Source: a virus. Taken from it: a stretch of 23,558 nt of DNA. A program made the position numbers and the translations under genes. The notes under the pieces are model-generated. The model was not told the origin of the DNA. It saw only the letters and a list, made by a program, of their open reading frames with translations, and searched no databases. The DNA lies in the IMG/VR virus record IMGVR_UViG_3300001851_000409, positions 1 to 23,558 of that record. One strand, given 5' to 3'. The stretch's first letter is position 1; each line of letters opens with the position of its first letter. Positions 9,701 to 23,526 of this stretch are shown here, piece by piece.

Positions 9701-9737
9701 AAATTGTAAATTTTAATAATATTAAGGAGTTAGTAAA

Positions 9738-10085
9738 ATGTCTGACGATGATTTAATTTTTGGAATGCAGAAATTGTATATGGCACATTCTGGATGTGTA
9801 AATATACCACATTCAAATTATATGAAAGCTCTTCTACATTATGTTCGCGAACATGATATGGACCAACTATCACAACAACCAAAGGAGAAACGCATTCCAA
9901 TGCAACTGTGTATGGCAGAGGGAGATACTTGGTCTATAACACGTGTTATAGCTAATGATGGAACAATGTGGAGCCTTCATGGTGCTGGCACAAAATGGAA
10001 TCGTCTTCCAAATGATGGAACAATGTGGAGCCTTCATGGTGCTGGCACAAAATGGAATCGTCTTCCAGAACTACCACAAGATTGA
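9738..10085 (+). CDS. Small phage protein with exact 19-residue tandem duplication
   Basis: 115 residues, strong ribosome binding site AAGGAG before the ATG. The C-terminal half has NDGTMWSLHGAGTKWNRLP twice in a row, then ELPQD. The unit ends in a D-G-T-x-W ... W-x-R-L-P motif that is common at the C-terminus of small phage proteins, normally once, so the unduplicated ancestor was probably about 96 residues. The duplication is exact at DNA level (see repeat 9954-10067). Function unknown. Ends in TGA. Confidence 0.75.
   Translation: MSDDDLIFGMQKLYMAHSGCVNIPHSNYMKALLHYVREHDMDQLSQQPKEKRIPMQLCMAEGDTWSITRVIANDGTMWSLHGAGTKWNRLPNDGTMWSLHGAGTKWNRLPELPQD
9934..9951. repeat. 18-bp perfect palindrome beside the tandem duplication
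   Basis: CTATAACAC followed directly by its reverse complement GTGTTATAG, inside the coding sequence and ending two bases before the first copy of the 57-bp repeat. Such palindromes can stall a polymerase and promote slippage. Confidence 0.7.
9954..10067 (+). repeat. Perfect 57-bp tandem duplication
   Basis: Copy 1 is 9954-10010 and copy 2 is 10011-10067, with no base difference. The unit begins AATGATGGAACAATG and ends CGTCTTCCA. 57 is a multiple of three, so the frame is kept and 19 residues are repeated. Identity at silent sites means the event is recent, or is an assembly or sequencing artefact. Confidence 0.95.
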
Positions 10086-22365: not shown

Positions 22366-23040
22366 TTACCACAGTTTATTCATATTTCCTTTCATGAAAT
22401 CCACTGCGCTCATTGTTTTTCCGTTTCTGTGATCTACAACTTTATCATTTTGAAATTGTATAGTTCTGATTTTATCGCCTCTTTCACCGGAACCAACTTG
22501 TTTCTGGCGAACATTATTGATTTTCGTGTTTGTATTTTCAACAACCATATTGCGAAGTTGTTCTATCATACTCTTTCGCGCATTGTCAAGACTATTTGTG
22601 CGACTTCGCGTTTGTGCTGTCGTGATTAATCCGGTTGGTTTATGTTTTAATCTACAACAAGTTTGCACTTTATTTCTATTTTGACCACCTTTACCGGTGC
22701 CAGAATACCATTGAATTTCTAAATCATCTTCATTTAATTCAAAGGTATTTTTATCTGGTTCGTTGTTCAAAACAGCCACAGTTACAGTGCTGGTGTGAAC
22801 TCTACCTCTTTTTTCAGTTGGTGGAATTCTTTGCAGACGTAACCCCCCTGCTTCTTTTTTTAATTGATCGATGTTATCACCGATAAATTGTAAACACGCA
22901 AATCCGTGGCGTTTATCTATTAATTTGGTGAGTCAACCAATTTTTGTTGATAATTTCTGATATGCATTGAGCAAATCATCAACAAAAAGACAACTATCTT
23001 CGCCACCTTCTGCGGCTCTAATTTCTAAAAATAAATTCAT
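22366..23040 (-). CDS. RF1-like peptide chain release factor with in-frame UGA
   Basis: 225 codons from ATG 23040 (GGAGTAGAA upstream) to TAA at 22366, with one in-frame TGA at codon 36 (22933-22935). Both sides belong to one protein: FLEIRAAEGGED (4-15) and, after the stop, LRLQRIPPTEKRGRVHTS (67-84), then GTGKGGQNRNK with G118-G119-Q120 for peptide release. The RF1-type PxT motif is P73-P74-T75, so recognition of UAA/UAG is expected. Domain 1 of cellular RF1 is missing. The UGA falls where release factors have a conserved Gly-Trp (AEKKGW type). No frameshift is needed: both parts are in the same frame. It may be read through, be a nonsense mutation or be a sequencing error. Confidence 0.8.
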
Positions 23041-23050
23041 TTCTACTCCT

Positions 23051-23370: not shown

Positions 23371-23447
23371 TGGTGTGCCCGGCAGGACTCGAACCTGCAA
23401 CCAAGCGGTTATGAGCCGCCGGCTCTGGCCAATTGAGCTACAGGCAC
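23371..23447 (-). tRNA. tRNA-Met (CAT)
   Basis: 77 bases with encoded CCA. Acceptor GTGCCTG/CGGGCAC; D arm GCTC/GAGC; anticodon arm GGCGG-CTCATAA-CCGCT with anticodon CAT; T arm GCAGG/CCTGC; A73. The acceptor is fully paired (G1-C72), so it is not an initiator. It could instead be a tRNA-Ile with a modified CAT anticodon; the sequence alone does not decide. Confidence 0.92.
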
Positions 23448-23451
23448 CATT

Positions 23452-23526
23452 TGGCGCGCTTGCCTGGACTCGAACCAGGAACACGAGTTTAGAAGACTCG
23501 GGTGATATCCTTTTCACCACAAGCGC
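23452..23526 (-). tRNA. tRNA-Arg (TCT)
   Basis: 75 bases with encoded CCA. Acceptor GCGCTTG/CAAGCGC; anticodon arm CGAGT-CTTCTAA-ACTCG with anticodon TCT; T arm CCTGG/CCAGG; discriminator G. It reads AGA, a codon frequent in this AT-rich genome. Four bases separate it from tRNA-Met, so they are probably processed from one transcript. Confidence 0.93.

Follow-up and report, generated by a model that had tools for sequence, protein, structure and literature searches.

What is a stop codon doing inside the gene for a protein that acts at stop codons? The question is raised by a 23,558-nucleotide stretch of viral DNA (IMG/VR record IMGVR_UViG_3300001851_000409, positions 1 to 23,558; hereafter the window), in which a gene for an RF1-like class-I release factor is interrupted by an in-frame UGA at codon 36. 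An initial annotation, made from the letters of the DNA, put forward readthrough as its leading idea, linked it to the regulation of prfB, and listed a phage suppressor tRNA and a nonsense mutation or sequencing error as alternatives. Our comparative analysis makes it probable that the UGA is a programmed readthrough site, through which the output of an RF1-like factor without domain 1 would be metered by termination capacity.

The gene starts with an ATG (23038-23040) on the minus strand, and the TGA at codon 36 is the sole in-frame stop before its end. The reading frame, the ATG, the AGGAG sequence upstream and the two Pfam domains of the protein (PCRF at residues 2-88 and RF-1 at residues 98-205) confirm that, as first annotated, the gene is intact but for this triplet. 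The relevant features of the window are as follows.

22366 to 23040, minus strand: RF1-like class-I release factor gene without domain 1, 224 amino acids if codon 36 is read as Trp
22933 to 22935, minus strand: the in-frame UGA at codon 36, followed by C, at an aromatic position (Trp in RF1, Phe in RF2)
22936 to 22938, minus strand: GGU Gly codon directly 5′ of the UGA, GGC or GGU in nearly all relatives
22933 to 23040, minus strand: first open reading frame of 35 codons up to the UGA, giving the product upon termination there
23046 to 23050, minus strand: AGGAG, the ribosome-binding site of the release factor gene as judged from the sequence
22864 to 22925, minus strand: positions matching the 3′ hairpin of the main subgroup (+10 to +71 from the U of UGA); folding z of the window copy -0.65
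22816 to 22824, minus strand: PPT (PxT-type) stop-recognition tripeptide, codons 73-75, from translation and alignment
22681 to 22689, minus strand: GGQ peptide-release motif, codons 118-120, from translation and alignment
23371 to 23447, minus strand: tRNA-Met (CAU) upstream of the release factor gene, from a tRNA search
23452 to 23526, minus strand: tRNA-Arg (UCU) upstream of the release factor gene, from a tRNA search

The frame continues unchanged past the UGA, with no CUU UGA +1 shift of the prfB type. A separate 20-kb metagenome contig (L001) carries the same 675 bases and is 99.6-99.8% identical to the window across 6 kb; among cultured phage records there is no close relative, all matches falling below 60% identity. 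Elsewhere in the window, a short tandem duplication (NDGTMWSLHGAGTKWNRLP, present twice) at 9955-10085 is readable in two overlapping open reading frames.

The protein is closest to RF1. Among NCBIfam profiles the nearest is prfA (192 bits, covering profile positions 105-334 only), followed by prfB (109 bits) and PrfH (39.8 bits). The prfA score lies below the equivalog cut-off of 400 bits because domain 1 is missing, so that the protein is not a full-length prfA product. PrfH (TIGR03072; cut-off 166.65 bits), which is likewise an RF1/2-like protein without domain 1, was rejected as an assignment: the window protein scores far below that cut-off and, unlike PrfH, keeps a PxT motif. An AlphaFold model (pLDDT 89) has as its best PDB match RF1 in the 70S ribosome (TM-score 0.85 by query). 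The GGQ motif, the PCRF and RF-1 domains, the PPT tripeptide and the predicted fold of domains 2-4, which is that of ribosome-bound RF1, all mark an RF1-type class-I factor. In cellular RF1 the PxT motif mediates recognition of UAA and UAG. In the model, codon 36 falls in domain 2 between a long helix (residues 14-34) and the next strand (37-44). Its equivalent is Trp in E. coli RF1 and Phe in RF2, and the position of the cellular RF1 Trp, to which the UGA had been assigned by eye, is upheld by this alignment.

Conservation of the UGA is evident from viral contigs, in which a profile scan confirmed 468 relatives; the best 80, including L001, were kept, 80 being the most loci retained in any scan. 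All 79 relatives beyond L001 among these best 80 of 468 carry a single in-frame TGA, which lies at codon 36, and the codon before it is GGC or GGU nearly always. This uniformity is not due to selection, since the peptide patterns used in the scan avoid codon 36 and carriers of TGG would score at least as well. A direct DNA pattern scan at codon 36, which answers the earlier call to compare TGG with TGA in relatives, found TGA in at least 120 contigs against TGG in 2. Both TGG carriers are release factors. One (L340) lacks any internal stop; the other (L341, near 9728-9808, minus strand) is a natural variant whose codon 36 is TGG and whose codon 40 is TGA, and here the stop has moved but not vanished, which shows that the element retained is the stop and not the Trp codon. 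In 30 sampled members, third codon positions differ most on both sides of the UGA (0.60 at position 3 against 0.27 and 0.19 at positions 1 and 2 upstream; 0.64 against 0.27 and 0.23 beyond codon 61), and therefore both halves are coding. A stop conserved in orthologues and coding constraint on both sides, the marks of programmed readthrough, are thus found together, in line with the idea that the initial annotation placed first. As judged from the sequences, codon 36 is a conserved feature and no mutation. A nonsense mutation, sequencing error, pseudogene or assembly error, which might be suspected because the window is a single contig of which the coverage is not given, is refuted by the identical copy in L001, the same codon in 79 of 79 relatives (best 80 of 468) and the constraint on both sides.

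The wider family contains further internal stops and frameshifts. Viral genes with distinct sequences were classed by HMM across three frames. An in-frame UGA at codon 36 (UGA36 genes) is found in 86, and 22 have their in-frame stop, in one case UAG, elsewhere (model positions 37 to 51). A +1 frameshift at UGA is predicted in 49 genes, 48 of them with CTT|TGA and 39 with an SD-like purine run; a +1 shift at CTT|TAG in 16 and at CTT|TAA in one, where the shift assignments of L146, L149 and L180 are unsure owing to weak contexts and L003 and L151 are one contig. Ten genes lack an internal stop, five of which have an RF2-type (SPF-like) or deviant loop; six RF1-like members are free of any internal stop (L016, L159, L218, L230, L285 and L340). 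Nine more matches to the family are partial only. Some members, such as those in phage records LR756501 (735 kb) and LR745206, have two in-frame UGAs. This arrangement (model positions 43 and 51, or 38 and 51) was observed in release factor genes of huge phages and their relatives (L012, L015; L141, L142, L145, L147, L134), and in the phage records sampled among its carriers (W01, W04) UGA is otherwise a stop. Two UGAs would make readthrough very inefficient unless termination were strongly depressed.

Members of the family also occur in bacteria: genes with an in-frame UGA36 in Thalassospira xianhensis, Jiella sp. and a Rhodospirillales MAG, genes with a CTT|TGA shift in several Nannocystis species, Minicystis rosea, Achromobacter and Novimethylophilus, and genes with a CTT|TAG shift in Kofleriaceae and others. 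In Nannocystis pusilla Na p29 (L322), CTTGAC stands in place of CTTTGAC, so that no frameshift would be needed; the control may have been lost naturally, or a homopolymer error may be responsible. In a tree built by a quick method, the UGA36 genes form one clade (support 99). By the same method the CTT|TAG genes are scattered, 15 genes needing 14 changes, and swaps between UGA and UAG are forced at least seven times by well-supported branches. The recognition loop is identical in genes with UAG or UGA as the internal stop. Relatives usually lie beside a tRNA array, with a tRNA within 3 kb of the release factor gene in 23 of 35 long loci. These comparisons suggest that UGA36 belongs to a recoding signal shared across the family, mostly with one event per gene, and that the more distant viral and bacterial members preserve an internal stop within the same N-terminal region in different ways. 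The UGAs at other codons and the +1 shifts at UGA or UAG were missed in the initial annotation, as was the covarying hairpin of the main subgroup described below.

Readthrough is lowered by a U at the +4 position, and tRNA-Trp is liable to misread UGA-A (PMC5289835). In 112 unique sequences the base after the UGA is A in 85, G in 18 and C in nine, and never U; the window has UGAC, as originally described, and the context is thus of the leaky kind throughout. Synonymous variation collapses right after the UGA, to 0.51 bits at codon 38 (1.90 expected) and 0.39 bits at codon 41 (1.57 expected), and again in a second block at codons 53-60, with no such constraint upstream. The two blocks pair with each other as a hairpin. 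In the main subgroup this comprises 18 base pairs and starts 7 nucleotides 3′ of the UGA (counting the U of UGA as 0, pairs 10-71 to 12-69, 14-67 to 20-61 and 22-59 to 29-52). Individual folds revealed the long hairpin, which pair counts then put to the test; an RNAalifold consensus fold missed it. Of the cells in 69 gap-free sequences, 78.1% are paired, against 69.0% in shuffles and at most 47.8% with slid partners, and double changes occur at 15 of the 18 pairs (128 double-change cells against 40.8 in shuffles, with none of 500 shuffles reaching 128). Folding z, the energy against synonymous-codon shuffles, averages -2.87 3′ of the UGA in 81 sequences; a control region gives -0.43 and the UGA frameshift class, where a hairpin is not expected to be needed, -0.41.

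A 3′ stimulatory structure is thus supported in the main subgroup. In the window copy the hairpin is not significant (z -0.65), and the sole stimulator visible there is UGAC. Of the three bacterial UGA36 genes, two are followed past the UGA by strong hairpins, though different ones. The small loop between TTGGT and ACCAA around the UGA, to which the initial annotation drew attention, is present in the sequence and its pairing is conserved in relatives; its covariation does not exceed that of shuffles (142 of 500 as high), and a function is therefore not supported. A UGA followed by a hairpin, as in the main subgroup, might also suggest a selenocysteine codon, a reading with next to no probability given that the homologous position in cellular release factors is Trp or Phe and not Cys, that the hairpin begins 7 nucleotides past the UGA and differs between lineages, that the Rfam matches of the window at gathering thresholds are all tRNAs, with no bacterial SECIS among them, and that the alternatives used by relatives are frameshifts.

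Hardly more credible is a true stop at the UGA with the remainder made by re-initiation, resulting in a two-chain factor. A downstream open reading frame of 137 amino acids that starts with GTG (22366-22779) could serve such a scheme, but the break would fall within domain 2, between helix and strand, the frame is preserved across the UGA in 79 of 79 relatives (best 80 of 468), and a +1 shift, which several relatives need, has no role there.

A genome-wide or late-phase reassignment of UGA, with a suppressor tRNA and an RF1-like factor that ends translation at UAA and UAG, deserves slightly more consideration, as code-4 phages with RF1 and a Trp suppressor have been described (cited in PMC10746230). 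The window gene resembles that system in being a phage-encoded RF1-like factor and differs from it in that UGA is an ordinary stop everywhere else. In the window TGA ends six of the 26 open reading frames of at least 120 amino acids, and the sequence past those TGAs is short and non-coding, which agrees with the earlier statement, based on about 12 of 47 genes ending in TGA, that UGA is a normal stop and the code not globally changed. Across 50 loci of the UGA36 clade TGA ends 219 of 721 such reading frames, with examples in all 50 and a median extension of nine codons, and in a complete 278-kb contig (G002) it ends 125 of 246. Genes with in-frame UGAs in the numbers typical of genetic code 4 were found neither in the window nor in G002 or the 50 loci. 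The window has four tRNAs (Asn, Pro, Met and Arg), none of them a Trp or UCA tRNA, and ARAGORN found no UCA-anticodon tRNA in the complete G002, in 83 loci or in parts of the huge phages, which gives no evidence for the phage suppressor tRNA once proposed. Since UGA is an ordinary stop and no UCA tRNA was found, code reassignment with a suppressor tRNA is not the explanation; moreover, some members use UAG or a frameshift instead. This reading is largely refuted and very improbable.

Features of the ordinary tRNA-Trp may also bear on the reading of UGA. An unpinned top anticodon-stem pair and a Hirsh-like A24 have been reported to promote it (PMC13092985). The former is seen in about six of 19 viral tRNA-Trp, compared with about 12% of other tRNAs (Fisher p 0.025; a small sample), and the latter, judged by eye in the same small sample, in four; it is suggestive only that viral tRNA-Trp may carry UGA-reading features. 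Viral tRNA-Trp(CCA) genes near the release factor genes often show one or the other of these features (L055, L063, L067, L089, L102, L105, L106, L110, L116 and L120). Separately, CUA-anticodon tRNAs, called tRNA-Pyl by ARAGORN, lie near release factor genes at L003:1495-1566 (contig G003) and L066:14139-14215, and the G003 release factor, near its CUA tRNA, itself has a CUU|UAG shift site.

We therefore return to programmed readthrough at codon 36. At the sequence level it is supported by the conserved stop, the coding nature of both sides, the normal use of UGA as a stop, the leaky context, the hairpin of the main subgroup and the replacement of the site in relatives. Against it stand the lack of a significant hairpin in the window copy, the PxT motif of the factor (where feedback by the factor itself at UGA is concerned), the six RF1-like members free of internal stops and the two UGAs in huge phages. 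Ribosomes that terminate at codon 36 would release a 35-residue peptide incapable of acting as a release factor, whereas those that read through would make the full-length RF1-like factor without domain 1. The likeliest decoder would be a near-cognate Trp-tRNA(CCA), which would insert the Trp that cellular RF1 carries at this position; we infer both the readthrough and the identity of the inserted residue from the comparisons above. If the full-length product is made only by readthrough, its yield should go up with slow termination at the internal stop and down with fast termination, an inverse dependence proposed by analogy with prfB. The site could then act as a homeostatic sensor of termination capacity similar to that of prfB, by in-frame readthrough instead of +1 frameshifting.

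Whether such a response would be feedback by the factor itself, or the sensing of host RF2 alone, depends on which stops the factor reads. If it reads UAA and UAG only, readthrough would be real and the UGA would report a shortage of host RF2, raising the output of an RF1-like factor when RF2 runs short, with no feedback; the initial annotation assumed such sensing of host RF2 from the PxT motif. Several observations fit this: the PPT loop and a Gln at the position equivalent to Q181 of RF1 in the UGA36 clade, the closer match to prfA (192 bits) than to prfB (109 bits), and the terminal stop of the UGA36 genes themselves, which is UAA in 80 of 86. However, sister lineages pair the same loop with CUU|UGA or CUU|UAG, often swapped, which fits a factor or pool that reads both, and there is no avoidance of UGA in the viral genomes, where it ends 30-51% of genes. 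We regard sensing of host RF2 without feedback as rather unlikely, though the strongest of the alternatives. Because UGA and UAG swap in relatives without a change in the recognition loop, we lean, by a narrow margin of confidence, towards feedback by the factor itself, and the simplest reading of the swaps would be a factor that handles both UAG and UGA. Sensing of host RF1 and RF2 would be the alternative, and for the UGA36 genes PxT would speak for it. A bolder proposal, for which the present comparisons fall somewhat short of an even case, is that the family represents a third widespread lineage, viral and bacterial, without domain 1 and with PxT, which reads all three stops and controls itself via an internal stop. 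The means would be in-frame UGA readthrough in one clade and, elsewhere in the family, a +1 frameshift that depends on UGA or UAG.

Among the closest known systems is prfB. Both have an early internal stop in a class-I release factor gene, and slow termination should raise expression in both; in addition, CUU|UGA with an SD-like sequence is used by distant relatives of the window gene, as it is by prfB (CUU UGA C with an upstream SD-like sequence). In contrast to prfB, the window gene is RF1-like and has no frameshift, its stop lies inside domain 2, and relatives have a 3′ hairpin. UAG was found in the prfB motif in 0 of 8,164 genomes, with no sign of a regulated prfA (Prince et al. 2025, PMC12421855), whereas 16 viral relatives use CUU|UAG; a CUU|UAG +1 shift is new for RF1-type genes. 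Before the sequence of the RF2 gene was available, in-frame UGA readthrough had been considered for it, but an early in-frame UGA with both open reading frames in one frame is found in no RF2 gene, the RF2 frameshift is not known to be replaced by readthrough in any organism, with one exception in an amoeba giant virus, and a UAG/RF1 counterpart was unknown (Atkins et al. 2016, PMC5009743). That exception, the class-I release factor of Mimivirus and Megavirus (R726/mg280), is of eRF1 type and combines UGA readthrough with a +1 shift (PMC3521657). It resembles the window gene as a viral release factor gene with an in-frame UGA in the context UGAC and Trp as the proposed insertion, and its shift stop varies between UAG and UAA (PMC3521657), as the shift stop of the window family also varies. 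It differs in that the protein is eukaryotic/archaeal in type, the host virus infects amoebae and both events occur in one gene, while the present family is of bacterial type, occurs in phages and bacteria and has a covarying hairpin; the likeness is convergent, since the protein families are different. Genes for RF1 and RF2 have been described in huge phages (PMC7162821), in passages that make no mention of internal stops. In the open-licence literature we found no prior report of internal-stop readthrough in a bacterial-type release factor.

If the proposed control is true, these would be the first autoregulated RF1-type genes and the first case of regulatory stop-codon readthrough in a bacterial-type release factor, and the family appears to supply close equivalents of the cases that Atkins et al. 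2016 list as missing. It may include an omnipotent bacterial-type release factor and offers a candidate readthrough hairpin in prokaryotic mRNA. There is also a practical warning, as gene callers truncate or miss release factor genes interrupted in this way. Since cultured bacteria (Thalassospira xianhensis, Nannocystis, Minicystis rosea) are among the carriers, beside viral contigs in the hundreds, the question is testable at once. Within a single protein family, naturally occurring recoding signals that can be converted into one another form a series: UGA readthrough, UGA shift and UAG shift.
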